Positions 18,176 through 51,425 of a DNA stretch of 64,000 nucleotides are shown here, piece after piece. Below the pieces are notes generated by a model. It saw only the letters and a program-made list of their open reading frames with translations, did no database searches and had not been told where the DNA came from. A program made the position numbers and the translations under genes. Each line of letters opens with the position of its first letter. The first letter of the stretch is position 1. Source of the DNA: Desulfoscipio geothermicus (GTDB taxonomy: Bacteria; Bacillota; Desulfotomaculia; Desulfotomaculales; Desulfallaceae); assembly GCA_016841905.1 (NCBI GenBank), contig JAENYF010000008.1:1-64000 (forward strand), given 5' to 3'.

Positions 18176-18258
18176 CGGTTTTCCTCCCTCCAGCACCATA
18201 GCCGGTCAGAATGCAACAGCCTCCAGCCTGTGTCATCTCTTTAATAAATTCACTTGCA

Positions 18259-18840: not shown

Positions 18841-18855
18841 ACATTTTCACCCCGT

Positions 18856-21078: not shown

Positions 21079-21105
21079 TGCTCCACACTCCACTTTGCCA
21101 AAATA

Positions 21106-22587: not shown

Positions 22588-22654
22588 TAATCTTCACCTC
22601 ATTAGCGTATTCACAAAGACCGGCAACATATGCCCCAACAACAAGAACAGCTAT

Positions 22655-23227: not shown

Positions 23228-23323
23228 TTTATTGCCTCCAGGATTATCTACTATCAGCCTGTAAATTCCATCCTTGAAAATCTAAGATCTACCGGCTGAA
23301 AAGGTTAAATATAATTAAGCTAA

Positions 23324-23353
23324 GGTTCGGGAGGAGATAACTCCTTCCGAACC
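23324..23353 (-). terminator. Strong hairpin after the phosphatase gene
   Basis: GGTTCGG-AGGAG and CTCCT-CCGAACC pair through 12 bp with one mismatch around ATAA. On the minus strand it lies 18 bp after the phosphatase stop but is followed by only a weak T-run, so it may be a partial terminator or an RNA-end stabiliser inside the cluster. Confidence 0.55.
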
Positions 23354-23371
23354 CAAAACCTATTTAATTTA

Positions 23372-25108: not shown

Positions 25109-25168
25109 AGTCTTCTCCTTTCTCACTTCTCACTACTCCGAAAGGGCAAACCGATTAGTTTTTGTATT

Positions 25169-25645: not shown

Positions 25646-25685
25646 GTGCACCCCCTCCTTTTCATCATTGCATATACAATATTTG

Positions 25686-27188
25686 CTAATGGGGGTTGAT
25701 TGCTGCATTAACAATGTTAACTACGTCCATCACGTTAACATCGCCGTCACTGTTTGCATCAGCGGCATAAAATTCGTCGGGGTTGGGCTGTATCTTGCCC
25801 AGAACAATGTTCACTGTTTTTACTACATCCAGGACGTTCACAACACCATCATTATTAACATCTCCTTTGAGCACCAAATCAAATGCCCGCTTCACGGTAG
25901 CGGTATAAATCTTGACAGTACCGTCTTCCGCGGTTACCTCCACGGTGACCGGGTTATCGCCCACGGCAAGGCTGTCCACCGTCCGTGCAGTGCCGCTTGT
26001 TGCCGCCGTTCCGTTAATTTTCAGTGTTGCTTTGCTGTCTGCAGTGATGGCCGTGATATTCACGCCGGTCACATCATTGGGCACATCCGCCGCGTAGGTT
26101 GTAACCGCCGGGTCAAAAGCCGGGGTCAGATCATAACCCGCTAATGCCAAACCGCTCAAATCAGCATTACTGCTTAGCATGGTGAAAAGATTAAGCCCGG
26201 CAGGAATGCTGCTGTTGTAATTAACATCATCCCTGGACCAACCCGTGAGGCTTCCGTCCGTTTGTAAAGCACAAACAGTTTCGTTTGTAGGCGCGCCGGA
26301 TATGGCTTTAATACCGGATAATTCGTTAAATGAAGTTATTTCACCCGTCATACATACACCTTGAACAGTACCGTCAGCAAATACAGCAGCAGATACCTTA
26401 ATTCCACCCGTAATAGCCCGTACGTTTGATAACGAGTCAACAAAAGCCTGATTGCTTGTTACATGAGAAGAATAACCGCCTATCGCTACCGTGCCGTCTT
26501 TCTTCAAAGCCAGCCAGTGTATTCCTCCCGCTGCTATCGCTACCACATTTCCATCCAACCCTGCCGGCTCATTGGTGTCTCTTCCCCAAACAGTAATGTT
26601 TCCTGCATCATTAAGGGCCACGGCATAGTTATTATTGATAGCCATTGCCACCACATTGCCTAGACCTTCAGGTACGATATCAACATTTCTAGTATTACTA
26701 CCCCAAACAACAACCTCGCCGGCCTCTGTGACTACTGCAGACATATTGCCGCCTGCTGCTATTGATTTTATTGTTAAGCTCTGCACATCAGTGGGGATGG
26801 TATATGGGGACGGATTAAAATTTTGATCCAAAACGCTGCCCCAACCAACTATTGTGCCATCCTCTTTTAACGCCAGCGTAAAACCAGCTCCTGCCGCCAA
26901 GGCCTTGACTCCGCTCAGTCCCGCCGGCACATTCAGCTGTCCGTAGGTGTTATCACCCCATACTTCCACTGTCCCATTTGCCTTAACGACGGCTGTATGC
27001 GGTAATTCATTAGCCACACCAACCGCCATTTTAGACGCATATTGCGCATAGTCGCTGGCGGCGTAAGCTTCCGGGGTTTGCGGTAGGGGATTGACTTCCT
27101 CTGCCAAACCGATAGGTATACAGGTAAACATCAACGACAAACAAATTAATACCGACAAGATCCTTTTAATCCGTTTTACTCTTTGCAT
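25686..27188 (-). CDS. Secreted RCC1-repeat protein with a cadherin-like domain and type I dockerin
   Basis: The 500-aa protein has a signal peptide, then repeated blade units of the RCC1 type (D-G-T-V/I-x-x-W-G, L-A-L-K-x-D-G-T) over about residues 55-330, then a cadherin-like beta-sandwich (about 345-430: Y-A-A-D-V-P-N-D-V, V-T-V-E-V-T-A-E-D-G). The C-terminus has two calcium-binding dockerin repeats (G-D-V-N-N-D-G-V-V-N-V-L-D-V-V and the matching A-N-S-D-G-D-V-N-V-M-D-V-V). A dockerin predicts docking to a cohesin, and no cohesin is visible in the window. AAAAAGGAGTGTTGACAA precedes the ATG. Confidence 0.85.
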   Translation of the reverse strand: MQRVKRIKRILSVLICLSLMFTCIPIGLAEEVNPLPQTPEAYAASDYAQYASKMAVGVANELPHTAVVKANGTVEVWGDNTYGQLNVPAGLSGVKALAAGAGFTLALKEDGTIVGWGSVLDQNFNPSPYTIPTDVQSLTIKSIAAGGNMSAVVTEAGEVVVWGSNTRNVDIVPEGLGNVVAMAINNNYAVALNDAGNITVWGRDTNEPAGLDGNVVAIAAGGIHWLALKKDGTVAIGGYSSHVTSNQAFVDSLSNVRAITGGIKVSAAVFADGTVQGVCMTGEITSFNELSGIKAISGAPTNETVCALQTDGSLTGWSRDDVNYNSSIPAGLNLFTMLSSNADLSGLALAGYDLTPAFDPAVTTYAADVPNDVTGVNITAITADSKATLKINGTAATSGTARTVDSLAVGDNPVTVEVTAEDGTVKIYTATVKRAFDLVLKGDVNNDGVVNVLDVVKTVNIVLGKIQPNPDEFYAADANSDGDVNVMDVVNIVNAAINPH

Positions 27189-27233
27189 TTGTCAACACTC
27201 CTTTTTGCGTTTCAGGTTCTTTACACTTATCAT

Positions 27234-29966
27234 TTATTGTTCTGTTACGGTAAAACTCAAATTCTGGCTTGGGTTGGCCCGGGGCACCATGGTATCCCAA
27301 CCGTCCCAAACAAATACATCCACGTAAGCTTGCCCGCTTAAGCTATCCGGCATGGTAAAATCTATGCTGACCGCTTTACCGTCAACCGGAATTTCACCTG
27401 CAAGCCCGACACATTCCAGCACCTGACCGCCGCCGGCAGCAGTGGCGCCGTCACCGATGCGCACCTGCATGATCACCAGTCCATCTTGTGGAGCGCAGTA
27501 ATTGTTGGCTATATTGGCGTTAATGCGGTAGCCGCCTTGGCCGGCCACGGAAGTGATGCTCTGGCCCGACGAGTCGAGCAGTTCTACCTTGTCCACGGCA
27601 AAATAGTGCCCGGACAATACATTAAGCCTTTCCAGCATCTGATTGACCGGTTCCACATATTCTGTATTCTCGCTAAAATATTTGAGAGTGCCGTCCCGGT
27701 AGATTATCGTGTTATCCGATATGGTCAATACGTTGGTCTCAGCGGCCAGCTCCTCGGCGTATCTAGTATAATCACCCCAAGTCACGACTGTACCGTCCGC
27801 CTTGACGGCCAAACCGCCGGCACATACGGCGGCCACATCATGTAAGCCAACCGGTACATTCCTATTGCCACAGGAATTATTACCCCAGACTACCACCGTG
27901 CCGTTCCCTCTTAAGGCTATGCAACCTGCACCGTTAACACAGATATCTACCACGTTATTTAAGCCCGGCGGTACGTCCCGCTGGCCGCAATCATTATTCC
28001 CCCAGGCCACCACCGTACCGTCATTTCTTAAGACAACGGAACAATCACCACCTGTAAAAATACGGGCCACGTCAGTCAAACCGGCCGGTACGTCGCACTG
28101 GCCGTAATCGTTATTGCCCCAGGCCGCCACCGTGCCGTCCTCCTTTAGAGCCAGGCAGTGGGAAGATCCCGCCGCTATGGCTTTAACCCCGATAAGATTT
28201 TCCGGCACGTCACACTCGCCGTTATAGTTACCACCCCAGGCCACCACCGTGCCGTCTTCTTTTAAAGCCAGACAGTATTGGCTATAAGCATCGATAGCCT
28301 TAACATTGCTTAAGCCTTCCGGCAGATCGCAGGCGCCATCCCGGTTATCGCCCCAAAACACTACCGTGCCGTCCTGTTGTAAAGCCATTATAAAATACGC
28401 TGTAACCTTGATTGACTTAACGTTGTTTAAACCTTCCGGCACATCAGCTTGGCCATGATAATTTTTAGGGTCATATACTTTTACAGTACCGTCCATATTT
28501 AATACGGCATAGCCTAAGCTGATAACCTTAGCGGCGGCCTGGACATAGTCGCTGGCGGCATAAGCAGCCGGGGTCTGGGGAATATTGGGCGCCGGACCGC
28601 TATATGGGGGCGGGTCGTCCGCAAAAAGGTTCAGTCCCTGGGGTACGTCACATTCACCTTCACCCCAGACCGTAACCGTGCCGTCCTCGTTTAAGGCCAG
28701 CAGGGAAGCATCATTACCGCTGCTAATGGCCAATATTTCCCGGTCCAGCTCCAGGGGAACGCTTAAATCTTCATTTTTGTTATAATAATCATTACCCCAG
28801 ACGGCCAGGCTGTCGTCCCACTTGAAGGCAACTGCATGGTTTGCACCCAAAGCAATAGCCTTAACATATTGCAAGTTAAGATTTTCAAACTCTTTACCAT
28901 TAAAGTCTGTTCCCCAGATCACTAGGGTGCCGTCGGCCTTCAAAGCCATACTGTAATAGTGAGCAGCGGCTATTGCCACCACATGATCCATCCCGACGGG
29001 CACGTCACACTGGCCGAAACCGTTCCACCCCCAAGCTACCACCGTGCCGTCCGCTTTGAGGGCCAGCATATGCCTGGTGCCGCACTCGATATCCACTACA
29101 TCGCCGGCTTCATTCAACCCCGCCGGCACGTCGCACTGGCCGTAATCGGTTGGTTGGCCCCAGACAACCACCCTGCCGTTCATGGTCAAGGCGGCGGAAA
29201 AATCTTGGCCGGCAGAAATATCAACCACATCACTTAGTCCGTCCGGTACATTGCTCTCACCTTTCCTGCCGCCCCAGGCAACAACAGTGCCGTCCTGTTT
29301 TAAAGCCAGGCTATGCCTGTTACTGGCGGCCACAGCGGTGACACTGTCCAGGCCGGCCGGGACGTTACACCCGCCCTCAGCATTATTGCCCCAGGCGATA
29401 ACGGTGCCGTCCTTCTTTAAGGCCAGATTAAGCTCGCCTGACGCCAACCGGCGGGCATATGCGGCGTACCCGCTGGCCTGGTAGGCCTGAGGGGTCTGGG
29501 GCAGGGTATATTCGCCGCCGACCCGTTTGACATGGAGAGTGTAGGTTAACTGGCTGCCGCTTTCAGCCGTTACCTTAATCGGGATGAGATTGTCGCCCAC
29601 CGCCAAATCCCTGCCGTAAACCGCCGTAGCGACACCGGTTGATGCCGGTATTCCGTTGATTTCAAGGGTGGCCTTATCGCCGGCGGGCTGCGCGGTGATA
29701 CGCACTTCTTCCGCCCCGTAGGCCACATCAATTATGCCCTCAGTCTGTGTACTGCTGAAGGCGGGATAGATTCCGCAGGAGATTATGTTTTCTTTCCCGT
29801 CCTGATATACCACGCTTTCCACGGTCAGGCCGGCAAGGGTGCTGTCGTTATAGACGGTATCAGTCACCGACGATGGGGACAGTTCAGTTGTTTCCTCCGC
29901 CCAGGACGCCGGCAGCGAGCCGAGCAGCATGACCAGACATAGGAGCAGCGAGAAAATCTTTTTCAT
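27234..29966 (-). CDS. Large secreted RCC1-repeat (beta-propeller) protein
   Basis: The 910-aa protein has a signal peptide, a cadherin-like beta-sandwich (about 35-150), then two blocks of RCC1-type units separated near residue 470. Each unit reads roughly as D-G-T-V-V-A-W-G-x-N-x-x-G-Q-C-D-V-P-x-G-L. At least twelve units are seen, enough for two propellers. The last 115 or so residues are the shared module ending Y-V-D-V-F-V-W-D-G-W. The repeat DNA is also similar, so the array has probably grown by duplication. AAAGGAAGAGAATTCC fixes the ATG at 29966. Binding rather than catalysis is likely. Confidence 0.85.
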   Translation of the reverse strand: MKKIFSLLLCLVMLLGSLPASWAEETTELSPSSVTDTVYNDSTLAGLTVESVVYQDGKENIISCGIYPAFSSTQTEGIIDVAYGAEEVRITAQPAGDKATLEINGIPASTGVATAVYGRDLAVGDNLIPIKVTAESGSQLTYTLHVKRVGGEYTLPQTPQAYQASGYAAYARRLASGELNLALKKDGTVIAWGNNAEGGCNVPAGLDSVTAVAASNRHSLALKQDGTVVAWGGRKGESNVPDGLSDVVDISAGQDFSAALTMNGRVVVWGQPTDYGQCDVPAGLNEAGDVVDIECGTRHMLALKADGTVVAWGWNGFGQCDVPVGMDHVVAIAAAHYYSMALKADGTLVIWGTDFNGKEFENLNLQYVKAIALGANHAVAFKWDDSLAVWGNDYYNKNEDLSVPLELDREILAISSGNDASLLALNEDGTVTVWGEGECDVPQGLNLFADDPPPYSGPAPNIPQTPAAYAASDYVQAAAKVISLGYAVLNMDGTVKVYDPKNYHGQADVPEGLNNVKSIKVTAYFIMALQQDGTVVFWGDNRDGACDLPEGLSNVKAIDAYSQYCLALKEDGTVVAWGGNYNGECDVPENLIGVKAIAAGSSHCLALKEDGTVAAWGNNDYGQCDVPAGLTDVARIFTGGDCSVVLRNDGTVVAWGNNDCGQRDVPPGLNNVVDICVNGAGCIALRGNGTVVVWGNNSCGNRNVPVGLHDVAAVCAGGLAVKADGTVVTWGDYTRYAEELAAETNVLTISDNTIIYRDGTLKYFSENTEYVEPVNQMLERLNVLSGHYFAVDKVELLDSSGQSITSVAGQGGYRINANIANNYCAPQDGLVIMQVRIGDGATAAGGGQVLECVGLAGEIPVDGKAVSIDFTMPDSLSGQAYVDVFVWDGWDTMVPRANPSQNLSFTVTEQ

Positions 29967-30092
29967 GGAATTCTCTTCCTTTCCCGGTTTCGTGCCAATC
30001 CAATAAAGACAAATTTGATAAAATGATGGGCCGCAGCATCTTGCGGTCAATCTAACTGGTTTTTATATCCGCTTCATTCATTAAGCCGGGGA

Positions 30093-30671
30093 TTAATTTG
30101 TAATTAAATTAATCTCGCTGATGGATGAAACAAAGTTGAGAATGGTGTAATCATTAGGATTTGTCTGACCATAAAAATTTCTTAGGCAATTGTTGGTGCT
30201 TAATGAACCGCCAAGATTCCCATATTGGGTGGCAATTATAGCCGGTACTGTAGTTATACCTGGATCGTTTAGATCTTCAGGATCAGGATAATAGTAGCGT
30301 GTGGTGTCCAGCAAAGAGCTTTTACTGAGTGTTACCGAGTAGTTATCGGAAGCGGTTATCTCAATGCTGACAACATCGTCAAGGTCATATAGCAGCTGAT
30401 TTGTTAAAGCATCATTAAAAACCTGTTCCATTTCCGGCCCGGAGGCGGTGTAATACCGATACCGGCTATGACAATCATCATAAGTTGAATAGTCATGTGA
30501 AGCAGTTGTGTTAAATGCATTTAACTGCGTGGAGGTATACGACTCCAAATTGCTGTCATTCAGTTTAACGGTTACGGAAGTGGTATCCGCAAAAGCTGCT
30601 GCACTAGTCAAACAGATGACTAAAGACATAACAAACAATATGCTCAATAATTTTATGCTTTTCATTTTCAT
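30093..30671 (-). CDS. Small secreted molybdopterin-like-domain protein
   Basis: The 192-aa protein is a signal peptide followed by a single copy of the cluster's paralogous domain. It keeps the markers L-D-T-T-R-Y-Y-Y-P-D, the P-A-I-I-A segment and N-F-Y-G-Q-T-N-P, but lacks SLH or Ig domains. No catalytic cysteine of the sulfite-oxidase type is evident. GGAGGGTTTTTA precedes the ATG. Confidence 0.7.
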   Translation of the reverse strand: MKMKSIKLLSILFVMSLVICLTSAAAFADTTSVTVKLNDSNLESYTSTQLNAFNTTASHDYSTYDDCHSRYRYYTASGPEMEQVFNDALTNQLLYDLDDVVSIEITASDNYSVTLSKSSLLDTTRYYYPDPEDLNDPGITTVPAIIATQYGNLGGSLSTNNCLRNFYGQTNPNDYTILNFVSSISEINLITN

Positions 30672-30735
30672 TAAAAACCCTCCTTTTTTTTCTGCTGCGG
30701 CCCAAAAGAAATCTTAAAACCCAACACGGCAAATA

Positions 30736-33534
30736 TTAAGCTTTATCCTCTTCAGCTTGATTATTATCTGTTGCCTGATTTTCCGGTTGATTATTGCTGA
30801 TAAAATTGACGTATGTTAGAAACCGTTTTAATATAGCTGCGCTTTGAGCCCGGTCGGCATTGGTTTGCGGTGAAAAATCTCCACCTGGCATACCATTGAT
30901 AATGCCGGCCTTGGCGGCCAGAGCTACATCCTGGGCTGCCCAGGAGGCAATTTCTGACTGGTCCTTAAACTGGGCCAACTGCCGGGCCTGCTCTTCAGCG
31001 GGTAATGTATCCTCTTTACCGGCTACCCGGGCTGCCCGCATAATCATGGCGGCCATTTCCTGCCGGGTGATGTTGTTACCGGGTTTAAAGAGGCTACCTT
31101 CATAACCGCCGATAATATTTTCCTGCGTGGCTGCGGCAACACTACCGGCGTACCAGTCTGAAGCTGTCACGTCCTTAAACCGGCCTTCTTTTAATTTGCC
31201 TTCTTCCAGACCCAAAGCCCTGACCAGCAGGGCGGCAAATTCAGCCCGGGTAATGTTGCTGCCGGGCGCATAGGTAGTGGCGGTTTTGCCGGAGATCAAT
31301 ATTTTATTAGCCAATAATTCAATATCCTCTTTGGCCCAGTTATCCTGAATGTCGGTAAAGGTCTTGTTGGACTGCAAAACAGTATATAAACTATTGGTCC
31401 GGTTCAAAATAACCGCTATATTTTGGCCGTCCCTGGTTTCAAACCGCGTAGGCAAAGGTTGGAACTGTTCTTGCGTCTCATACCACACGACACCTGTGGC
31501 CTGTCCGGCATTGAAATCGCCGTTCAGGGGGATTTCCCGCTCAACATAGGTTTTTCCGAAGGAATTATAGGTTACTTTTTTACCGCTGGGAGTGGTGATT
31601 TCTACGCGGAATTCGACCGGGTCAGCCACTATTTTTTGATCGTCCCGGATATTGGCAGCAAGTTTGTTTTTATCCTCATCAGTTGCTTTGGAGATATAAA
31701 TTTGCATGTTTAGTTCTTCCGTTTTGACACCTAATTCGGAGGCTATTTTATTAAGATCAAGGGAATTTAAAGGTAGGGTGTAATAGCCGATAGTGCTATT
31801 TATGCCTATCAACATCCCTTTTTCTTGGGCTTTTTGCAGCACTGCAGCAGGTACTTCAGTGATCACTTCATCCACATCGGCGGTAGAAGTAACCGCCAGA
31901 CTGCTACCTTGTATTCCGTTTTCTATGTCCTCCAGGGTGCCTGCCAGTAAAATGATTTTCTCACCTATGCGGCCATTTTCAAGGGTTAACTCTTCTTTTC
32001 TGATGTTATTTTCATCAATCATTTGTTTAACAATACCACCACCGGACCCCACTGGAGCCCCTTGCACTCCTTTAACCGTAAACTTAAAGGTAACAATGTC
32101 ACTATCTATTTGCCCTCGCCCGACAGCTTTGGCTTTAATGGTGGTGTTTGCATTCACCGGAATCGGTTCGTTTAATTCCGGAATGTGACCGCTAACATTA
32201 TAAATCTTGCTGTTCAGGGTCGGGTTACTGCCATCGGTGGTATAATAAATTATTGCTCCCGCTTTACCCTCTAGGACAATTTTTGAACCATTTTCTACTT
32301 CACCGCCCTGGGTGGCAACTTTTTGATTGGAACCGGGAGCGATAATTTTGGCCGTCGGTTCGGACCACTGACCTGGAGAATTGGTCGATACGGTAATGCT
32401 ATTTAAGTATTTGACAAAACCCAAAAGAGTTTGCTCTGTTTGAGCGCGCTGGCCAAAACATAGCACCGGTGTCTCACTGCCGGTCATACTGCCAAAATTA
32501 GAAGACCCTTCCGCCCGTTTCAGGGCAATTAACGGCTCTACTGGTGTTTGACCGGGGAATTTGTAACATGTTTGATTAAATAGTTCATCAACCGTAAATT
32601 CAGCCCTATACCCGTCAGTAGCCCTAAAAGTAATTTTTTTAGCTGCTCCCCACCGCATCCCGGCTTTATCCAGCAAGGTCCGCAACGGTACACCTTCGGC
32701 AGCCACAAATAAATCTTGAGGCCAGTCATTTGTCGCCGAGAATAATACTCTTTCCTGATTCATTGCTGTAAGCTCTTTAAGGGAAAAGGAGATTTCTTTG
32801 GCCACTCCGTCTCCTCTAATAAAAAGATCATCATCGGGGTCAATCCCTCCCGGACCACCGGGGGTTCCCCCTCCTGTTGAAACTACCGCAAATTGATAAG
32901 TTTGAGCTGCAGCCAGTCCGTCCCCGGTAACTACAATGGTATAATCACCCGCAACTGCATTGGCTGCCAGGGTAAAACGGGTGGTAAAATTACCGTCAAC
33001 CACCGGCGGCTGGGCTACATAAACCCGCCCGTTTTTGCTGTTGCGGACGCAAATAGCAATCGCATCGGTTCTTTGGGCCGTGCCGGCTATCTCCACTATG
33101 GCTCCCGGTTTGAATTCCTGCCCCGCGGAGGGTTTTGTCAGATCTAGGGCAGCTCCACCGGCACTTCTCACCTCAAACTGGTATGTTTTTATTTCCGGCA
33201 AGCCTAAACTACCGACATTAATTGTATATTGCCCTTCATCCGCCGCAGGATTGAGGGTAAAACAGGTGCTAAAGGCGCCACCTTGCACCTGGGGCTGGGC
33301 CGTAAATATCAGTACACCTTGTTCATTACGCACGGCTATCGATACCTCGGCTAATCCCAGGGCTGTGCCGCTAATTTCGACAGTATCTCCAGGTTTGTAT
33401 ATTTGATGGGCACCGGGAGAACTCAGACTCACTTGAACATTATCAGCTGCGTAACAAACGCCGAATATCCACAAGAATATCGCCAGCATCATCGATATAC
33501 CTAATAGATGCCTTCTTATCTGTATAAACTTCAT
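30736..33534 (-). CDS. Large SLH surface protein with paired Ig-like domains and a molybdopterin-like domain
   Basis: The 932-aa protein has a signal peptide and two Ig-like repeats (about 30-125 and 130-220), each with Y-K/F-K-P-G-D/A-x-V-E-I-x-G-T-A and V-R-N motifs. The paralogous oxidoreductase-like domain follows (about 240-390; I-R-G-D-G-V, L-C-F-G-Q), then a chitobiase-C-like segment, a region of about 260 residues of unknown fold, and three SLH repeats (about 735-915). It is the largest wall-anchored member of the cluster. AAAGGAGAATTT selects the ATG at 33534. Confidence 0.85.
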   Translation of the reverse strand: MKFIQIRRHLLGISMMLAIFLWIFGVCYAADNVQVSLSSPGAHQIYKPGDTVEISGTALGLAEVSIAVRNEQGVLIFTAQPQVQGGAFSTCFTLNPAADEGQYTINVGSLGLPEIKTYQFEVRSAGGAALDLTKPSAGQEFKPGAIVEIAGTAQRTDAIAICVRNSKNGRVYVAQPPVVDGNFTTRFTLAANAVAGDYTIVVTGDGLAAAQTYQFAVVSTGGGTPGGPGGIDPDDDLFIRGDGVAKEISFSLKELTAMNQERVLFSATNDWPQDLFVAAEGVPLRTLLDKAGMRWGAAKKITFRATDGYRAEFTVDELFNQTCYKFPGQTPVEPLIALKRAEGSSNFGSMTGSETPVLCFGQRAQTEQTLLGFVKYLNSITVSTNSPGQWSEPTAKIIAPGSNQKVATQGGEVENGSKIVLEGKAGAIIYYTTDGSNPTLNSKIYNVSGHIPELNEPIPVNANTTIKAKAVGRGQIDSDIVTFKFTVKGVQGAPVGSGGGIVKQMIDENNIRKEELTLENGRIGEKIILLAGTLEDIENGIQGSSLAVTSTADVDEVITEVPAAVLQKAQEKGMLIGINSTIGYYTLPLNSLDLNKIASELGVKTEELNMQIYISKATDEDKNKLAANIRDDQKIVADPVEFRVEITTPSGKKVTYNSFGKTYVEREIPLNGDFNAGQATGVVWYETQEQFQPLPTRFETRDGQNIAVILNRTNSLYTVLQSNKTFTDIQDNWAKEDIELLANKILISGKTATTYAPGSNITRAEFAALLVRALGLEEGKLKEGRFKDVTASDWYAGSVAAATQENIIGGYEGSLFKPGNNITRQEMAAMIMRAARVAGKEDTLPAEEQARQLAQFKDQSEIASWAAQDVALAAKAGIINGMPGGDFSPQTNADRAQSAAILKRFLTYVNFISNNQPENQATDNNQAEEDKA

Positions 33535-33580
33535 AAATTCTCCTTTCATCTTCCAAACAAAAGAAGAGTGCTAAATAATT

Positions 33581-35233
33581 TTATTCAATATCAAAGCATA
33601 ATGTATGGTTAGCCTTTCCCAACGGGTTATGACTACTGCAGTTATCCCAGACAAAGACATCCACATAGGCTTTTCCACTTATATTAGCGGGCATGGTAAA
33701 TTCAGCCTCTGCCTGGCCACCCTCAACACCTACCACTGTTCGAGCGGCAACGAATCCCACAACAGCACCCCCGGTAGTAACGGTTGCCCCTTCCCCATTG
33801 CGTACCTGAATAACCAGCAAAGCGTTCTTGTCTGCATTCACTTTGTTATCAAAACCGGCTTTAATAGAATATCCTCCGCCGGCTGCAACAGAAGATATTT
33901 CCTGGCCGTTATGGTCCAGCAATTTAACACTGCTGATAGTTATTTCATCGTCGATATTAATCAATCTGATAGTTTTGACATGCTTTATAATATTACCGGT
34001 TAAATCACTATCACTAAGATCTCGTAAAATTTGAATATCGGCAATTTCCTCACCATTTACTTCATAAGCCAATAGGCACCGCTGGTTTTTTAATTCCTGG
34101 ACCGTACCGGCCTCAATTGTTTCACCGCCGGCTGTAATAAACTCAACGCCCCACCTGCTGGAAACATTAAGTTGCTCGAGCAGTGTACCTAAAAGCACAC
34201 CCTTGCCAGTCAGAGTAACAGTTTGTCCCTGCTCGGAAAACTGGTATTGCCCCTCAGCCGGGGTCATGCTTTTTAATGTTTCCACCGCATAGCTAACCGG
34301 ATTACTTAACCCGGCTCCTTCAATGGTACAGGCTAACGCCCCTAAGTTATATTCAAAGGTTACGACCTCACTGTCCAACTTACCAAAGCCAATCGCCTTT
34401 GCTTTAATGGTTACATTTCCGTCAATTGGTACCGGTGCGTTTAATTCCGGTTGAAAATAAGGGTAGCTAATATTGGCTATGATACTTCCACACGTAGGTT
34501 CGGTGCCATCCAGGGTATAATAAATGATAGGTCTGGTATTGGTACCATCCCCGTATTGTAATTTTACTTTCGTACCGAGAACTACTGTGCCCGGGGCGAT
34601 ATCAACGTTCGGCGCTTCCCACTGCTCCAGAGACCCTGTGGTTACTTCAATGCTCCCTCCCGTACACACAGCATCAAGCATTAGACTTTTACATACAGTT
34701 GGCTCAAGAGGCGACCGCTGCCCAAACAACAGTTTTCCATCTGCCAAATTTAAAGCCAGCATAGTTTCAACCGGTATTCTCCCTTCCTCACTGCGCTCAG
34801 GCGGCCAGCCTACCACATCACCGGGATTCTCTATATCGGGGTAATAATACCGGGGAATGTCCAGCAACTGTTCTCTGGTATAATCGCTATAAATACCGCG
34901 ATGTTCTTTGATCCTGATCAATTGGGCATTGTCCTTTAAACCGGCTACGTCTAAAATGGTTTTAAGCGTTGGGCCTGTCATATCTTTAAAGATGTTTAGG
35001 GCAGGAAAACGATTATAGCCGGAATAGGTGTAAGTTGCCTGCGGCAGGGCTTCCAGATCGGCCCAGGTAAACTGCACTGTTTTTTCGACCCCGTCACCTG
35101 TTACTGTTAACGCTATTGGCTCGGCCGCGTTAGAAATCTGCGGTGCAGCCAGGACAAAAAAGCAGGCAATAAAACATAACACCGCCAGCCCGGCCAGTAG
35201 CTTGCGCAAGCTTAAATCTCGGAAATTTTCCAT
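33581..35233 (-). CDS. Secreted protein with two molybdopterin-like domains and the shared C-terminal module
   Basis: The 550-aa protein has a signal peptide, a first oxidoreductase-like domain (V-T-G-D-G-V-E-K, R-Y-Y-Y-P-D, L-L-F-G-Q), a chitobiase-C-like stretch (I-Y-Y-T-L-D-G-T-E-P-T) and a second, diverged oxidoreductase-like domain (about 300-425). The 115-residue module ends the chain (Y-V-D-V-F-V-W-D). It has no SLH repeats, although its first 300 residues closely match the SLH protein at 21106-22587, so C-terminal modules were swapped between paralogues. AAAGGTGAATAACGC precedes the ATG. Confidence 0.8.
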   Translation of the reverse strand: MENFRDLSLRKLLAGLAVLCFIACFFVLAAPQISNAAEPIALTVTGDGVEKTVQFTWADLEALPQATYTYSGYNRFPALNIFKDMTGPTLKTILDVAGLKDNAQLIRIKEHRGIYSDYTREQLLDIPRYYYPDIENPGDVVGWPPERSEEGRIPVETMLALNLADGKLLFGQRSPLEPTVCKSLMLDAVCTGGSIEVTTGSLEQWEAPNVDIAPGTVVLGTKVKLQYGDGTNTRPIIYYTLDGTEPTCGSIIANISYPYFQPELNAPVPIDGNVTIKAKAIGFGKLDSEVVTFEYNLGALACTIEGAGLSNPVSYAVETLKSMTPAEGQYQFSEQGQTVTLTGKGVLLGTLLEQLNVSSRWGVEFITAGGETIEAGTVQELKNQRCLLAYEVNGEEIADIQILRDLSDSDLTGNIIKHVKTIRLINIDDEITISSVKLLDHNGQEISSVAAGGGYSIKAGFDNKVNADKNALLVIQVRNGEGATVTTGGAVVGFVAARTVVGVEGGQAEAEFTMPANISGKAYVDVFVWDNCSSHNPLGKANHTLCFDIE

Positions 35234-35287
35234 GCGTTATTCACCTTTCCATTTATTAAATGGTAATGGTAGTCAAGTTATCTTTCT

Positions 35288-36103
35288 TTATTCTTTAAAT
35301 TTAATTATAAAAAGCTGCTGATCATCGGTATTAAAAAAATCATCATCTGTTATTGGCTGCTTTGCTGTGATTATCAGACTGCTGCCGTCCTTTTCCCAAA
35401 TGCTTTGTTGTAGCTCATGGGTTTCGTTATATCTAAAGCGCGGGGGATTGGCCAGGCGAGCATTGCTTAAACCCTGTAGCACATCGGCCAAGCACGGTGA
35501 ACCGTTTACCGTTACCTTTAACTCTTTTGAATTGAGCTGACCAAAATAATCATCAGCTATTAGAGCCATGCGCACGCCCAGCAATAATTGGTCACATTTT
35601 TCCTGGTGGTGGAGTAAAGCCTGTTTCATGAAAATTTGTTGACGCATTTCTCTTTTTAATGGGCGAATATATGGCGTAACCGGGGAGAAAACGATTTCTT
35701 GCTCATAATAGGGTTTTATATCCAGCACTGGGGTTTCATTTATAGCATCCAATCCACTAACCCAAAGAAGGTTGTCTTTAACTTGCTCCAAACGGACCAG
35801 TGACAAGGCAATAGGATTGGGGCGGCCATAGGCACGCAGGCTAAAAACTCCATATTCAGGAAGGTTGGAATTAACCTTCCCGGGTACGACTTTCAAAGTG
35901 TCTCGCGGTGCCTTGTGAAACCACATCTGAATCCAAAGATGCGAGTTTTTCTCAATTCGCAATAACCCGTCCTTGTATTCGGGAAATATTTCGATCTGGG
36001 AGGTACCTCCCCCAATCGGCACATTGTCCAAGGCCTGGAAATCAGATCTAATAATCCCTATCGGTTTTAAAGTAATAATGCCTGTTTCATTACATACTGA
36101 CAT
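35288..36103 (-). CDS. TsaA/TrmO-domain protein with an FmdE-like C-terminal domain
   Basis: Residues 8-140 match the TsaA (TrmO, YaeB-like) domain: P-I-G-I-I-R-S-D, the H-L-W-I segment, R-P-N-P-I-A-L-S and L-D-I-K-P-Y. The remaining 125 residues resemble FmdE of formylmethanofuran dehydrogenase clusters (Q-L-L-L-G-V-R-M-A-L-I, a Cys in G-S-P-C-L-A-D-V), but the first H-G-H-x-C-P motif is degraded to H-H-Q-E-K-C. TrmO methylates t6A in tRNA. FmdE-like domains are linked to Mo/W enzymes. It is the only cytoplasmic protein among the surface genes, which supports a Mo/W theme. AAAGGATGTTCCTAA precedes the ATG. Confidence 0.7.
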   Translation of the reverse strand: MSVCNETGIITLKPIGIIRSDFQALDNVPIGGGTSQIEIFPEYKDGLLRIEKNSHLWIQMWFHKAPRDTLKVVPGKVNSNLPEYGVFSLRAYGRPNPIALSLVRLEQVKDNLLWVSGLDAINETPVLDIKPYYEQEIVFSPVTPYIRPLKREMRQQIFMKQALLHHQEKCDQLLLGVRMALIADDYFGQLNSKELKVTVNGSPCLADVLQGLSNARLANPPRFRYNETHELQQSIWEKDGSSLIITAKQPITDDDFFNTDDQQLFIIKFKE

Positions 36104-36138
36104 TTAGGAACATCCTTTCTCAGCCTTTTATTCAACTA

Positions 36139-37515
36139 CTAATTCAATGCATTAACAATAACTGTCACTGCCTCCGCTCTGGTGGCACCTGCCTGGGGCC
36201 GGACGGTGTCGTCGGGATAGCCATTAATAATTCCGTGCTCCGTAGCAGCGGCCATAGCTTCCCTAGCCCAGCTGGAAATGCTGCTACTATCGGCAAACTG
36301 CGTATCCCTTGCTGCCGGTGTCAGCTTTGCGGCCTTAACGATCATTGCGGCCATCTGCTCCCGGGTGATCAGGTCATTTGGACCAAAGGTATCGGCGTCA
36401 TAACCGCTGACTATTCCGTTGGCAGCTGCAATAGCTATGCAATCTCCAGCCCAGTGGCTGGCTGTATCTGCAAATTTTTTACCGCCATTCGAAGACGACA
36501 ACTTGAATGCATTTACCAGCACGGTGGCAAATTCGGCCCGGGTAATGGATTTGTTCGGCTTGAAACTGCCATCCGGATAGCCGCTTATGCAGCCCATAGC
36601 CACTAGTTTGTTAATGTTGTCATATGCCCAATGGCCGGTAATATCATTTAATGCTACAGCTATTACCTTGTCAGTATTAACTACATCTTTCTTATCTGCT
36701 ATTACGGCAAATTTTGTGAAATGGTTCACCTGCATCGTTATGGTATTTCCAGAAACAGTGCCTCCGAGATTAACCCACTTGCCCTGGCTATCATCGTAGT
36801 AGTAAATCGCCGGAGTCTCATCTGGACTGATTAATGCGAGATCAAAGCTAAGTGTTATAGTTACATTTTTGTCAAAAGTATAGCTATTCTTGCCATCCAC
36901 GCTGAATTCATATACAGTGCCGACAAGCTTGAAACCCGCAGGAACATCTGGAGGGTTGGTTACCTTTTGGACTTTTACCTCCACTCTGCTGGTACCTGTC
37001 AGCGAGTAGGCGGGTATTTCAATTGTAGCTTCACTGCCCAAACTTATTGTGCCGCCCGCGCTGGGAGTGACTGTAGCCTTCCCGGTTGTTGAAGTAACTG
37101 CATGAGATATTGTACCGCCACCGCCACCGCCGCCATTAGAACCGCCATCATTGCTGCTCTTATCTACCTTAAAAGTGAAATTAACCGGCGCAGGTAATTC
37201 TTTGGCGCCAATATCGATCGTATATTGACCCTCCACTGCGTCGTCATTAAGTTGAAAGACAGTGGAAAAAGCACCGTTTAACACAGGCGGCTGAGCCGCA
37301 TATGCAATACCGCCTGCGGCATTGCGCACTATAATAGTAACCTGCGTAATATCTTGCGCATTACCGGTAATTTGGATGTTATCTCCAGGTTGGTAATTTT
37401 GAGAAGGAACCGGTGTGTCAAGACTGACTGATGGTCCATTGGCTTCAGCAAAAGAAACTCCCATGTATAACAAGAAGATAACCGGAGCTAATAAAACACA
37501 GAATAGCTTTTTCAC
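36139..37515 (-). CDS. SLH surface protein with an Ig-like domain, first gene of the cluster
   Basis: The 458-aa protein has a signal peptide, one Ig-like domain of the type found in the 30736 protein (Y-Q-P-G-D-N-I-Q-I-T-G-N-A, V-R-N-A-A-G-G), a Gly-rich linker and a beta-rich middle part resembling ZU5-like surface domains (I-P-A-Y-S-L-T-G-T). Three SLH repeats (about 285-455) end it. It lacks the oxidoreductase-like domain. AAGGATGG suggests the GTG at 37515, with the ATG at 37524 an alternative. It lies about 290 nt after the riboswitch terminator. Confidence 0.8.
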   Translation of the reverse strand: MKKLFCVLLAPVIFLLYMGVSFAEANGPSVSLDTPVPSQNYQPGDNIQITGNAQDITQVTIIVRNAAGGIAYAAQPPVLNGAFSTVFQLNDDAVEGQYTIDIGAKELPAPVNFTFKVDKSSNDGGSNGGGGGGGTISHAVTSTTGKATVTPSAGGTISLGSEATIEIPAYSLTGTSRVEVKVQKVTNPPDVPAGFKLVGTVYEFSVDGKNSYTFDKNVTITLSFDLALISPDETPAIYYYDDSQGKWVNLGGTVSGNTITMQVNHFTKFAVIADKKDVVNTDKVIAVALNDITGHWAYDNINKLVAMGCISGYPDGSFKPNKSITRAEFATVLVNAFKLSSSNGGKKFADTASHWAGDCIAIAAANGIVSGYDADTFGPNDLITREQMAAMIVKAAKLTPAARDTQFADSSSISSWAREAMAAATEHGIINGYPDDTVRPQAGATRAEAVTVIVNALN

Positions 37516-37800
37516 AAGTACCATCCTTTTTTGTAAATTACATTAGAAATTAAATTATAGTTATAAAAATACGTAAAACCGGAATGCTGCTTAGAAAACT
37601 TGCACCTTCTTTCTTATTCTTTCTAAATAAATCCGGATTTTACCACCTCCAAATTAATTATTGCTCTCCTAAAATTCACCACTTCATATTTAAGAGCTCA
37701 CCCCATTGCAAGTGGGCCTTGCCTACGGATTACTTTCCAACCGGTTATTCGACAGATTTCTTAAAAGTTGGGGGGTCTACTTACTGCCGCATAAAAACAT

Positions 37801-37842
37801 AAAAAAAGACCTCAGTCTTAACCAAGGCTGGAGGTCTTTTTA
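37801..37842 (-). terminator. Terminator (probable attenuator) upstream of the surface cluster
   Basis: On the minus strand AAAAAGACCTC and GAGGTCTTTTTTT pair with inner CAG/CTG pairing, followed by seven T. It lies about 30 nt after the riboswitch-like element and 285 nt before the first gene, so it can stop transcription in the leader. An A-run on the other side means it could also work on the plus strand. Confidence 0.7.
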
Positions 37843-37869
37843 AAAATAGATAAACAGTAAATGGTTAGT

Positions 37870-37996
37870 TACATAACCATCCTGATATTAGATGTAATGC
37901 CCCTTTCCAACCATGGGAGGCTGATCTGTTTCCAGATTAACCCTTAAAGGCCTTTTGCCATGACTAAGTGTTTTAGACAAGAAGACTCGGAGCTAA
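37870..37996 (-). promoter_or_regulatory. Candidate molybdenum/tungsten-cofactor (Moco/Tuco) riboswitch
   Basis: The minus strand shows, in order, CATGG (37962-37958), a short A/G segment, a GAAA-capped hairpin ATCTG-GAAA-CAGAT (37937-37924), GCCTCCC (37921-37915), CCATG pairing back with CATGG, and GGAAAGG (37908-37902). GCCTCCC followed by a closing strand and GGAAAGG is the conserved core I recall from the E. coli moaA Moco riboswitch. The long P3 arm of that RNA is absent, as in variants proposed to sense tungsten cofactor. A terminator hairpin follows. Confidence 0.6.
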
Positions 37997-38229
37997 ATTA
38001 TAAAATTATATAAAATTCATTTTTTTTATTCTATGCCAAACTTTAATATTTGGTCAAGTTAAATTTTTCTATTATATTCGACATTATTCTACATATTATT
38101 ACATAATTAATAACATCCTACATGGTTAATTAAAAAATACTTCCCGCTTTTCAAAAAGTCTAATGCATGCCCCTTAATTGACCCCTTACGCATTTAAAAA
38201 AATATCTCTGTCAGCGGATCCATGCCAGC
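37997..38229. other. AT-rich intergenic DNA
   Basis: The stretch between the riboswitch-like element and the nucleotidyltransferase terminator is AT-rich and has no plausible gene. It probably holds the promoter for the surface cluster, but I could not pick one with confidence. Confidence 0.5.
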
Positions 38230-38268
38230 AAAAAGCTAAGCTGCCGCTTAACACGTGCAGCTTAGCTT
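38230..38268 (-). terminator. Terminator of the nucleotidyltransferase gene
   Basis: AAGCTAAGCTGC (38233-38244) and GCAGCTTAGCTT (38257-38268) form a perfect 12-bp stem. On the minus strand a T-run follows, 20 bp after the gene's stop. Confidence 0.85.
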
Positions 38269-38287
38269 ATGCAGTGAGCTACATCTA

Positions 38288-39136
38288 TTAATTTTGCAGT
38301 AGTTTTTCCGTTTCCGCAATCAGTTCTTGCAGTATCGCTATCGCCATACTTGTTTTATCCATGTCTGCGGAAATCAATGTGATTGCATAATCAACTTTTG
38401 GCTTGTAATTCGATGGTTTGATATTAAAACCATCTATCTTGGAGGCCGCCTTTTTCTCATTTAAGCAGTATTCTTCGTTCAGCGCAAAGATGACCTGGTT
38501 TAAACAGGCAATAGTGCGATAACAGCAGCCGGCGACATAAGTGATGTCATCCTTTTCCACATTGTCAGCGGCGTACATTAGCGAGTAATTTGCTTCAAAC
38601 ATGAAGTATTTTATAATGGCCTGCTGCGTCGCTTTAGGGTAAGTATTTGTTTTGGCTTTTAATTCGGCTATGCGATTGTTTGGATCAGCCAGTATTTTAC
38701 CAGTAGCTATTTCACCCATATACATGACATTAACAAAAGCATGGGGATGACCGGCATGGTAATGGGCCTCCACTTTACCTCTTAAACAATCATCAATTAC
38801 CTGTGAGACTTTTTCTACATCACGAAATACAAAATCAAAAAGATGTCCTTCAACCTCCAGCCACCCACCGCCGTTTACCCACGGACCCCATTCACCTAAG
38901 GAAGTAATTAATCCTTGCCTATGCTCATCATCAATATGGGCTGCTATTATACCTATATTCCGCACATTGAAACCAGCCGCTTCACTATAATAAATGCCGA
39001 TATCGATATCGGAAGTAATAGTTTCAGTGCCTCTAGCTCTTGAGCCCCCCAGAGCCACTCCCACAACTCCGGGTGCCTCTAATAATATATTGGCTACATC
39101 CTCTATAATCCTATCTAATTCATTTACAATATTCAA
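38288..39136 (-). CDS. Nucleotidyltransferase-domain protein
   Basis: The product (282 aa) has the polymerase-beta nucleotidyltransferase motif G-V-A-L-G-G-S-R-A-R-G, then S-D-I-D-I-G-I-Y-Y near residue 50, with a helical C-terminal half rich in Lys and Glu. Related proteins transfer AMP or other nucleotides to small molecules or proteins; aminoglycoside adenylyltransferases are distant relatives. The substrate is unknown. AGGAGGGAGG about 9 nt before the TTG at 39136 decides the start; the frame opens at an ATG (39181) with no ribosome site. Confidence 0.75.
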   Translation of the reverse strand: MNIVNELDRIIEDVANILLEAPGVVGVALGGSRARGTETITSDIDIGIYYSEAAGFNVRNIGIIAAHIDDEHRQGLITSLGEWGPWVNGGGWLEVEGHLFDFVFRDVEKVSQVIDDCLRGKVEAHYHAGHPHAFVNVMYMGEIATGKILADPNNRIAELKAKTNTYPKATQQAIIKYFMFEANYSLMYAADNVEKDDITYVAGCCYRTIACLNQVIFALNEEYCLNEKKAASKIDGFNIKPSNYKPKVDYAITLISADMDKTSMAIAILQELIAETEKLLQN

Positions 39137-40892: not shown

Positions 40893-41001
40893 ATAAAATG
40901 GTAGGGAATAGTCACAGATTTTGTGGGTAGATTCCTCATGAAATGCGACTTACATATTACGTGAGGGGCTTATTTAATCGAAATTGCTACCTAAAATAAA
41001 A

Positions 41002-41076
41002 TGGAGCGGAAGACGGGATTCGAACCCGCGACCCTCGCCTTGGCAAGGCGATGCTCTACCACTGAGCTACTTCCGC
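41002..41076 (-). tRNA. tRNA-Gly (GCC)
   Basis: The minus strand folds into a cloverleaf: acceptor GCGGAAG/CTTCCGC, anticodon stem CGCCT with loop containing GCC, T-arm GGGTTCGAATCCC, and an encoded CCA end. It is followed in the same direction by nothing recognisable before 40892. Confidence 0.95.
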
Positions 41077-41099
41077 AATTAATTTCAATTTGTTTATTG

Positions 41100-41176
41100 G
41101 CGGAGCTGACGGGAATCGAACCCGCGATCTTCGGCGTGACAGGCCGACATGTTAGACCGCTACACCACAGCTCCGC
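41100..41176 (-). tRNA. tRNA-Asp (GTC)
   Basis: The minus strand gives acceptor GCGGAGC/GCTCCGC, anticodon stem TCGGC/GCCGA with loop CTGTCAC (anticodon GTC) and T-arm CGGGTTCGATTCCCG. A full CCA does not appear to be encoded. It lies 23 bp upstream of tRNA-Gly on the same strand, so both are probably co-transcribed. Confidence 0.93.
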
Positions 41177-41360
41177 AAAAATAAGTCTTCGCAACAGCGA
41201 CATAAAATATCATACCAGCTTGTCTGCAATATGTCAAAGGTTTTTCTCGGAAATTAAGATAATCAGCAGCAAATATACCGGCGTTCTGAGTTGCTTAAAG
41301 CCGGCAAATATGTGTATTATTAAATTGCAAAGTTATTCAATCAAGGAAGGAATTACTAAT

Positions 41361-41843
41361 ATGGCTAAGAATAAAACCCCCATAACTCCTGCAATACGAC
41401 TGCTGCGCAATGAAAAGGTTTCTTTTGAGGAGCATACCTATGACTATGAGGACAGGGGCGGCACTGCAGTTTCAGCCAGAGAGCTGGGCGTTGACGAGCA
41501 TTCGATAATTAAGACATTGGTTATGGAGGACGAAAATAAGCAGCCTTTAGTTGTTCTAATGCATGGTGACCTTGAGGTTTCCACTAAAAAACTAGCTCGT
41601 CTGCTTGGTGTTAAAAATATAGTTCCATGCTCTCCTGAAACAGCCAATAAGCATACGGGGTACTTGGTGGGAGGAACCTCCCCCTTTGGTACCCGCAAAT
41701 CAATGCCTGTTTATATGGAGCAAACCATTGCCGAATTGCCAAAGATCTATATTAACGGCGGCAAGCGTGGTTTCCTGGTTATCCTTGATCCGCAGGATGT
41801 GATGCGCCTTTTGCAGCCAACCCTAATGCAGGTAGGCATATAA
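41361..41843 (+). CDS. ybaK: Cys-tRNA(Pro)/Cys-tRNA deacylase, YbaK/EbsC family
   Basis: The 160-aa protein has the YbaK layout: T-P-A-I-R-L-L near the start, an early H-T-Y-D-Y segment, the catalytic-type K near I-I-K-T-L-V, and G-Y-L-V-G-G-T-S-P-F-G-T-R-K followed by G-G-K-R-G-F-L-V. The family hydrolyses mischarged Cys-tRNA(Pro). AAGGAAGG ten bases before the ATG sets the start; the open frame continues upstream only through the tRNA genes. It is convergent with the sensor kinase gene, 2 bp apart. Confidence 0.9.
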   Translation: MAKNKTPITPAIRLLRNEKVSFEEHTYDYEDRGGTAVSARELGVDEHSIIKTLVMEDENKQPLVVLMHGDLEVSTKKLARLLGVKNIVPCSPETANKHTGYLVGGTSPFGTRKSMPVYMEQTIAELPKIYINGGKRGFLVILDPQDVMRLLQPTLMQVGI

Positions 41844-48722: not shown

Positions 48723-51425
48723 TTATATCTTTTCAACTATGGCTGCAGAAACTTTGTATTCAGGTATCTTAGCCGTAGGATCTAAAAATTCCGAGCTGGT
48801 TAGCAAGTTAGCCGGAGTTTCTGTAAAATGGAAGGTTGTAAAAATAACCCCGGGAGCAATCGTGTCAGTCACTTTAGCTTTCATTTCCAACCTGCCGCGG
48901 CGGGTTGATACACTCACCATGTCATCGTTTGCAATACCCAATGCGTTAGCCTGTTCCGGATTGACTTCCAATTCAGCTGTGGGTACGTGCTCATTCAGTG
49001 CTGAGGCACGGCGAGTCATGGTACCGGTATGGTAGTGGAACAAGCTGCGACCAGTGGTAAGCCTTAAAGGATAATTTTCGTCAGGCAGCTCACCAGGAGC
49101 GATATAATCTATCGCGGTAAACGCGCCTAGACCACGGCTGAAGTTACCGTCTTTGTGCAGGTAAGGTGTACCCGGATGCTCTTCTGTCGCGCACGGCCAC
49201 TGTAAACCGCCGTTCTCAATGCGCTGGTAACTGATCCCGGCATAGGAAGGGGTAAGTGTGCGAATTTCTTCAAAGATTTGCTCGCTATTATCGTAATTCA
49301 TGGGATAACCCATCCGGGTAGCAACCTCGCACAGTATTTCCCAGTCAACCCGAGCTTCGCCTGGTGCTGATACTGCTTTGCGAACCCGCTGTACTCTTCT
49401 TTCCGTATTGCTGAAGGTGCCGTCCTTCTCCGCAAAGCAAGCGCTGGGTAAAACCACGTCAGCGCACTTGGCGGTTTCAGTGAAAAAAATATCCTGTACT
49501 ACCACAAAGTCAATTTTTTCCAGGGCGTCTTCTACATGTACCAAATCAGGATCACTCATCATTGGATTTTCACCCACGACATAGAGGGCTTTAATATCTC
49601 CATGATGTGCCTTGTTAATTACTTCCGTTAAAACCAGACCATTTTGGCTTGGGAGAGATACTCCCCAGGCTTGTTCAAATTTTTCCTGAGTGGCATCATT
49701 AGTTACAGCTTGGTAAGCGGTAAATACGTTAGGCAAGCCACCCATATCACAGGCTCCCTGCACGTTGTTCTGGCCTCTTAAGGGGTCTACCCCAGTGCCG
49801 GGACGACCGATGTTTCCGGTAAGCATAGCCAAGTTGCAAACTGATTTAACGTTATCAGTACCTGTGCGGTGCTGGGTAAGTCCCATGGCGTAACAAATGG
49901 CTGAGTTGCCGCTTTCAGCATAAAGCCGGGCTGCTTTGCGAATATCTTCGGCCGGTACACCGGTGATGGGCGCTACAAATTCAGGGGTATACTTGGCAAC
50001 CAAAGCCGCCATTTCTTCAAAGCCCTCGGTATGTTGGGCAATGAAATCCAGATCAGCCAGTCCCTCACTGATGATCACGTTCATCATCCCGTTTACCAGA
50101 GCGACGTCTGAACCGGGCAAGTGCGGTAGGTAGACATCGGCAATTTTGGCCAGATCAGTACGGCGTGGGTCAGCCACAATTAAACGAGCCCCATTTTGCA
50201 GGACATTCTTCTTAATTTTCATACCAATTACCGGGTGATTCTCGGTAGTGTTGGAACCGATCACGAATATACAATTAGCGTCTTTTTCTAATTCGCCAAT
50301 GGAATTAGTCATTGCTCCGCTTCCGAATGCTGCCCCCAGACCGGCGACAGTGACGGAGTGTCAAAGACGGGCGCAATGGTCCACGTTATTAGTGCCAAGT
50401 ACGGCACGAGTAAATTTCTGGGCAATATAATTTTCTTCATTGGTAACCCGGGCAGACGTAAATACAGCCATACTATCCGCCCCGAATTCTGTTTTAATCT
50501 CACCCAGACGTTTAGCTACCAGGTCCAGCGCTTCATCCCAGCTGGCTTTTCGAAATTCACCGTTTTCCTTGATCAAGGGCGTTGTTAAGCGCTCGGGGGA
50601 GTTAATGAAGTCCCAACCAAAACGTCCCTTTACGCAAAGAGCACCTTTATTCACCGGGCTTCCAGTATCTGTACGATTTGAAGTCACGCCCACTACGCGG
50701 TCATCCTTAACATTTAGCTCAAGTGTACAGCCGGTACCACAATAACTGCAGGTAGTAAGAACTTTATCAACTTCATAAGACCGGCCCAGTCCTGCGCTGA
50801 CTTTACTGGTTAGGGCTCCTGTCGGGCATACCATCACGCACTGCCCGCAGAAAACGCAAGGGGAATCGGTCAAATTGCCGTCAAAAGCAGTGGATATTTT
50901 GGCATGGTGGCCGCGATTCTCGACGCTGATGGCACGGACAATGGAAATATCTTCACAGGCCCGGACACAACGGGTGCACATAATGCATTTGTTATAATCA
51001 CGCTCAAAAAACGGGTTTGGGTCATTAATAGGATAATTGGTTGGTTCACCATAATTGAAACGGCTTTCCTTAACCCCGTATTGATAACAGTAATCCTGCA
51101 ACTTACAGTTGCCATTTTTTTCACATACCTGGCAATTGAAATTATGGCGGGCAGACAACAGTTCCAGAATAACCTTGCGAGCAGCCACTATTCCCGGACT
51201 TTCGGTTTCTACAACTATTCCGTTTTCGGCCGGCGCAACACAGGATGCTGCATACAAGGGACGTCCTTTTATTTCCACCAAACACATGCGGCAGGAACCG
51301 GCCAAGCGCAAATCAGGGTCGTAGCAAAGGGTCGGGATGGGAATTCCGGCTTGCTGGCATGCTTCCAGAATAGTACTGCCTTTCGGGGTCTGAACTTCTT
51401 TGCCGTTAATTGTTAAAGTTATCAT
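48723..51425 (-). CDS. fdhA: Selenocysteine formate dehydrogenase catalytic subunit FdhA
   Basis: The frame is split only by one in-frame TGA (50361-50363, codon 355) in D-H-C-A-R-L-U-H-S, the place of the active-site selenocysteine. With it read through, the protein is 900 aa. Order of domains: 2Fe-2S (about 1-75), NuoG-like Cys/His motif (C-Q-V-C-E-K-N-G-N-C), two 4Fe-4S clusters (C-I-M-C-T-R-C, C-V-F-C-G-Q-C), a cluster-binding C-S-Y-C-G-T-G-C of the bis-MGD domain, and a C-terminal guanine-dinucleotide-binding domain. It reversibly oxidises formate to CO2 using Mo or W. It forms a complex with the two following NADH-module proteins. An upstream AGGAGGGTATAAA sets the ATG. Confidence 0.95.
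50318..50363 (-). other. SECIS element for UGA readthrough in fdhA
   Basis: Just after the UGA the minus strand can form a hairpin TGTCGCC/GGGCAGCA with a loop containing GGTCTG. The GGUCU apical loop is the recognised SelB-binding feature of the E. coli fdhF SECIS. It lies within the coding frame. Confidence 0.75.

Follow-up and report, generated by a model that had tools for sequence, protein, structure and literature searches.

A P3-less Moco-family riboswitch upstream of a surface-protein and ECF-transporter gene set in Desulfoscipio geothermicus

Described Moco-family riboswitches and the leader in the window

The closest described system is the Moco riboswitch family (RF01055). The class itself, its terminator platforms and its tandem arrays are already known, as are two P3-less RNAs that precede S. 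wolfei 'sulphite oxidase' genes (Regulski et al., 2008; PMC2408646). Aptamers without P3 were proposed to be Tuco sensors (PMC2408646), and the highest copy number on record in 2008, that of S. wolfei, stood at 15 or more (PMC2408646). A second point of comparison is PruR, a protein without the Mo-ligating Cys that binds small pterins in the periplasm (PMC13259868); a 2026 review states that the passage of pterins across bacterial membranes is unknown (PMC13259868).

The locus described here lies in a window comprising the whole 64-kb stretch of D. geothermicus DNA that was analysed. It resembles the Moco family in its above-cut-off sequence and structure, the GAAA tetraloop of P4 and the terminator platform, and its genome shares the P3-less variant, tandem arrays and many copies with those of syntrophic Clostridia (S. 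wolfei has at least 15). In contrast to the family as described, the target is a surface/S-layer and ECF-transport operon, and this 3.1-Mb genome alone has 31 copies, roughly double the 2008 figure. The 'sulphite oxidase' RNAs of S. wolfei are likewise aptamers without P3 ahead of PF00174-type genes, whereas the PF00174 domains here lack a conserved Mo-ligating Cys, are found in or beside SLH/Fn3 surface proteins and belong to large operons. A literature search joining riboswitch, S-layer and tungsten or molybdenum found nothing relevant. The first-pass annotation regarded a link between Mo/W status and surface proteins as new; the surface target stands, but the link is not wholly new, since the S. 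wolfei targets were listed in 2008 (PMC2408646). What is new is the surface/ECF operon as a riboswitch target and the size of the regulon.

A covariance-model search of the window matched RF01055 (Moco/Tuco riboswitch) at 38004–37883 on the minus strand with 70.1 bits (E 7.2e-15), about twice the gathering score of 36 bits. The alignment spans model positions 1–135, the full model length, with the P3 positions deleted. The Moco/Tuco-like riboswitch without a P3 arm that the first-pass annotation had read on this strand, and proposed to check with the Rfam model, is thereby borne out, and the motifs it named (CATGG, the CTGGAAACAG tetraloop hairpin, GCCTCCCATGG and GGAAAGG) are all present. P4 is capped by a GAAA tetraloop (CUGGAAACAG), a mark of the Moco family, and the P3 stem is missing, as in the Tuco subtype. 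The element is a true P3-less member of the Moco riboswitch family. Its features are as follows.

38028–38057, minus strand: sigma-70-type promoter TTGACC-18-TAGAAT, a consensus match only (10/12), the region's best on the minus strand
37883–38004, minus strand: P3-less Moco/Tuco riboswitch aptamer (RF01055), with 92% identity to orthologous leaders
37902–37915, minus strand: CAUGGUUGGAAAGG, aptamer 3' segment and predicted antiterminator 5' half, pairing with the terminator 5' arm in a transcript ending at 37822
37826–37835, minus strand: ACCUCCAGCC, terminator 5' arm and predicted antiterminator 3' half, identical in three species while the loop varies
37801–37841, minus strand: intrinsic terminator, a hairpin of -15.7 kcal/mol followed by a T run, with 81% identity in orthologues

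The promoter-like site ends 24 nt upstream of the aptamer, and both of its hexamers are kept in the leaders of two congeners. The full element, from promoter through U-tract, occupies 38057–37801 (minus). The interval first assigned to it, 37801–37996, captured the element but not its bounds, as it starts within the U-tract and clips the first few aptamer bases; the terminator expected after the aptamer was found as a hairpin and U-tract that start about 41 nt past the aptamer model end. A scan of the leader for further riboswitches (Rfam families, E up to 1) returned, beyond RF01055, PyrR and STnc370, both sub-threshold chance matches, and a second riboswitch 3' of the terminator was ruled out.

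The full leader transcript folds as aptamer plus terminator, and the transcript ending at 37822 folds as the antiterminator, with P1 open and CAUGGUUGGAAAGG paired with CCUCCAGCC of the arm. The predicted control structure of the window leader thus adjoins the aptamer and is mutually exclusive with it, as in the Moco family. The cognate aptamer–terminator pairing amounts to -13.3 kcal/mol in the window leader and -14.3 in the orthologues. Across the 31 copies in the genome, pairing of each aptamer 3' end with the cognate terminator arm averaged -14.5 kcal/mol, compared with -11.6 for arms swapped in from the other copies; expected pairs numbered 10.2 and 7.2, respectively, and none of 20,000 permutations matched the cognate pairing in energy or in expected pairs. 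A narrower test using the GGAAAGG segment alone gave a weaker signal, and the wider 3' segment was used instead. The excess of cognate pairing would reflect the design of a transcription OFF switch, with both antitermination and the OFF direction supported by computation. When the cofactor is scarce, the aptamer 3' end would pair with the terminator 5' arm and permit read-through; once a Mo- or W-pterin cofactor is bound, this segment would be held in the aptamer, the terminator would form and the operon would be off. Overall, the element is probably a P3-less Moco-family OFF switch for a 17-gene surface/ECF operon, one of a regulon of about 31 switches, and the operon a capture system for cofactor starvation.

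The surface operon and its PF00174 domains

Seventeen minus-strand ORFs follow the leader from 37524 to 16768 with gaps of at most 144 nt, a spacing which by itself suggests one 17-gene transcript; no further strong terminator-like site was found on the minus strand in the part scanned, 18300–38290. The controlled surface/uptake gene set covers about 21 kb. The surface-protein cluster that the first-pass annotation placed under the riboswitch corresponds to this SLH-containing operon, and the Oxidored_molyb, FmdE and SLH domains it recognized downstream were all matched by Pfam. In full, the Pfam matches comprise SLH, TrmO_N with FmdE, Oxidored_molyb/Fn3_assoc, MG2/SLH, RCC1, cadherin-like, dockerin, purple acid phosphatase, Big_2, MotA/ExbB, PF09819, ABC ATPase and CbiQ.

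36139–37524, minus strand: S-layer protein (SLH x3; PF00395, E 1.4e-46) with an Ig-like N-terminus, the first gene of the operon
35288–36103, minus strand: TrmO_N + FmdE fusion protein (PF01980, PF02663)
33581–35233, minus strand: secreted protein with a degenerate sulfite-oxidase-fold (PF00174) region and Fn3_assoc/CHB_HEX by Pfam; Mo-ligating Cys not seen
30736–33549, minus strand: surface protein with MG2, CHB_HEX, a weak PF00174-like stretch and SLH x3
30093–30671, minus strand: 192-aa protein, no Pfam or NCBIfam match
27234–30050 and 25686–27188, minus strand: two RCC1-repeat/cadherin-like surface proteins, the second with dockerin
25169–25714, minus strand: 181-aa protein without family
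23372–25126, minus strand: purple-acid-phosphatase-like metallophosphoesterase
22655–23227, minus strand: membrane-anchored single-domain PF00174 protein (E 2.2e-9), of sulfite-oxidase fold and PruR-like size
21106–22587, minus strand: CHB_HEX + SLH surface protein
19798–21093, minus strand: Big_2 protein
19130–19801, minus strand: MotA/TolQ/ExbB-like protein
18856–19176, minus strand: 106-aa protein, no NCBIfam match
16768–18840, minus strand: ECF-type transporter with PF09819 membrane component, ATPase and CbiQ-like T component

A homologue of the TrmO–FmdE protein at another locus (L040) has an RF01055 of its own directly upstream. The ExbB-like protein (18856–19801, minus) has an ECF transporter and surface proteins as neighbours, in a genome of Gram-positive type, and the ExbB-like/ECF pair is conserved in two further genomes (G004, G005) and in Syntrophomonas.

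Across 20 aligned PF00174 domains, the Mo-ligating Cys of sulfite-oxidase-type Mo enzymes is not conserved, and many matches span just part of the profile; two conserved Cys of the 22655–23227 protein are located in an insertion. A sequence search of the PDB with a single PF00174 protein gave nothing useful, and the 20-domain profile recovers sulfite oxidoreductases (5.6e-11) and, at lower significance, PruR pterin-binding proteins (7kom, 2.6e-6). The model of the 22655–23227 protein, of moderate confidence (pLDDT 65), adopts a sulfite-oxidase fold, and its sole sound Foldseek matches are sulfite oxidases/dehydrogenases and PruR 7kom. On this model and their N-terminal hydrophobic segments, the PF00174 proteins combine the fold with absence of the Mo-ligating Cys and a predicted extracytoplasmic location. 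In these respects, found by profile and by fold, they are like PruR (7kom, 7kp2, 7kos; PMC13259868). Unlike PruR, to which they are distant (7kom, E 2.6e-6), they show no DcpA partner here and sit in Gram-positive-type surface proteins under a Moco-class switch.

Every one of the 40 PF00174 domains in five Desulfoscipio genomes has a same-strand RF01055 0.5–20.3 kb upstream, the strand space within 20 kb of a copy being 2–6%; the matches are clustered and the genomes related, and domain counts do not equal independent trials. Two congeners with just four RF01055 matches each have no PF00174. Outside Desulfoscipio, linkage was counted by hand within 25 kb, partial counts being lower bounds. It was seen for 2/2, 5/5, 4/4 and at least 1/3 domains in four Syntrophomonas genomes (G060, G061, G063 and G062, respectively), for the single Petroclostridium domain, immediately 3' of the switch, and for at least 6 of 10 in G046. 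Two cases count against the explanation preferred here: at least 2 of 12 domains are linked in a Dethiobacter MAG, and none of four in Pelotomaculum terephthalicicum, among the matches listed.

Regulon, conservation and ligand

The 3.08-Mb genome holds 31 RF01055 matches, 30 of them above the cut-off, compared with 4 to 26 per congener genome and a maximum of 26 among 60 relatives searched. P3 is missing in all 31 copies, with a short linker in its place (judged by eye and from sequence and length), and a terminator stands 3' of nearly all, mostly within a few nt of the aptamer. The copies are followed by genes for WtpA, TupA (two places), ModA, ModD, MoeA, MoCF proteins, a FecCD-type importer, Fe-S proteins, a CBS-domain sigma-54 activator and several surface-protein sets, and C74:74545 has a Mo/W-pterin oxidoreductase domain downstream on its own strand. 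Besides the surface operon, the regulon of about 31 switches thus takes in the uptake of tungstate and molybdate, MoeA, and Mo/W enzymes, which makes it very large for a single-ligand riboswitch. About eight units concern surface proteins, and cohesin and dockerin proteins are both among the members. Of the 17 SLH proteins, six have a copy at most 20 kb upstream on their strand, against an expectation of about one (binomial 4e-4); as these six come from three operons, the figure makes the evidence look stronger than it is.

Just past the window, two further RF01055 units on the same contig (L026; G000:C8:70189, 75932) precede a CCG Fe-S protein and SLH/cohesin surface proteins. Tandem RF01055 pairs with one terminator per aptamer precede a family-less 286-aa protein (L034, G000:C13:58015-58298), a CBS/sigma-54 activator (L030, C21:5536-5823) and a family-less 258-aa protein (L036, C33:19550-19838). 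At L021 (G000:C74:85785-85905), RF01055 lies about 1.8 kb upstream of the pantoate-beta-alanine ligase gene (panC) on the same strand, with two small ORFs between.

The leader and, mostly, the gene order are conserved in two congeners (G002 and G003), whose leader sequences are the same as in contigs labelled Desulfoscipio geothermicus MAGs. Identity to the orthologous leaders is 92% in the aptamer and 81% in the terminator, compared with 62–75% in the surroundings, and ACCUCCAGCC is invariant across three species. In a Syntrophomonas MAG (L088), orthologues of the window genes at 36139, 33581 and 30736 (54–58% identity) come after three RF01055 aptamers in tandem; each aptamer has a P3-like hairpin and a terminator of its own. 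This arrangement is the strongest evidence for selection on the association of switch and surface genes. Against the preferred explanation stand three genomes in which the ECF/PF00174 module has no RF01055 in the flank examined. Family membership, terminator, conservation and regulon are direct observations.

The ligand and the job of the operon are inferred. The ligand is left as Moco or Tuco because P3-less copies precede not only the tungstate binding proteins WtpA and TupA but ModA too, and P3-bearing ones precede formate-dehydrogenase-like and aldehyde:ferredoxin-oxidoreductase (AOR)-like genes in G002/G003, these genes being identified by eye. The absence of P3, rightly noted in the first-pass annotation, does not establish its reading as a tungsten-cofactor variant, given P3-bearing aptamers before an AOR-like gene and before the orthologous surface operon of Syntrophomonas. 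Aldehyde:ferredoxin oxidoreductase is usually a W enzyme. P3-bearing RF01055 copies lie before an AOR-like gene at L082 186-322 and L080 3685-3821, contrary to the rule that P3 denotes Moco.

Possible roles of the operon

The favoured role is capture of Mo/W or pterins at the surface, because PruR-like domains and an importer at the operon end coincide with OFF logic; no one operon gene demonstrates this role by itself. The operon would be induced by starvation, its products capturing oxyanions of Mo/W or (molybdo)pterins in the cell wall and handing them to the ECF transporter, with SLH-anchored PruR-like domains, the phosphoesterase, the ExbB-like protein and the transporter as the proposed parts. 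A broader claim, possible though doubtful, is that anaerobic Bacillota capture molybdopterin-like pterins or tungstate/molybdate at the cell wall through a system induced by Moco/Tuco riboswitches at low intracellular cofactor, a cofactor-salvage route not described before.

The main rival, which we consider unlikely, is that the operon replaces the functions of Mo/W enzymes: once the cofactor ran short and the formate dehydrogenases no longer worked, a surface apparatus would serve electron transfer or partner contact. The genera concerned are mostly syntrophs or anaerobes with formate dehydrogenases; a sister unit (C74:116910) encodes ApbE, FMN_bind and Fer4_5 proteins with PF00174 domains, in G061 and G062 RF01055 is followed by an ApbE-like protein (by eye) and a giant surface protein, and the regulon's cohesin and dockerin proteins would also fit. 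However, no flavin, heme or Fe-S electron carrier is among the Pfam matches of the window operon, which ends in an importer and so fits uptake better. It is less probable still that the surface proteins' PF00174 domains act as genuine Mo/W enzymes under ordinary cofactor-dependent control, as the family match, the sulfite-oxidase fold and the reading given to the S. wolfei genes by Regulski et al. (2008) would have it; the Mo-ligating cysteine is unconserved in the 20 aligned domains, many matches cover the profile partly, and an OFF switch would turn off a cofactor-using enzyme while its cofactor is present. A relict leader, or a small RNA ending at 37801, with no control past the terminator is very improbable: four copies (C74:79329, C88:6614, C47:2699, C47:6761) have no obvious same-strand gene directly downstream, but aptamer and terminator (92% and 81%) are conserved above their surroundings (62–75%), and three serial switches stand before the orthologous operon in another family.

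With surface capture as the preferred reading, the reach of a cofactor riboswitch is extended from cofactor genes to the cell surface, and a switch on surface/uptake genes points to a role for the cell surface in obtaining the cofactor or in replacing its functions. The 'sulphite oxidase' genes of S. wolfei may be of the same kind as the PF00174 genes here, and Cys-less surface PF00174 proteins may explain the exception noted by Regulski et al. (2008), for which this offers a reading. Cultured Desulfoscipio and Syntrophomonas would allow tests of the surface response to Mo/W limitation and of the salvage of external pterins or cofactor; among them, D. gibsoniae would bring RF01055/PF00174 islands of its own, provided that G005 represents this species.

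Elsewhere in the window, a formate-dehydrogenase-like gene at 48723–51425 (minus), without RF01055 in front, is interrupted by one in-frame TGA; a PF00384 match at 49317–50591 reads through it, and the codon probably specifies selenocysteine. At 41001–41843 (plus) and 41005–41174 (minus), two tRNA genes overlap the called start of an opposite-strand YbaK-type tRNA-editing ORF, the true start of which is probably further in.
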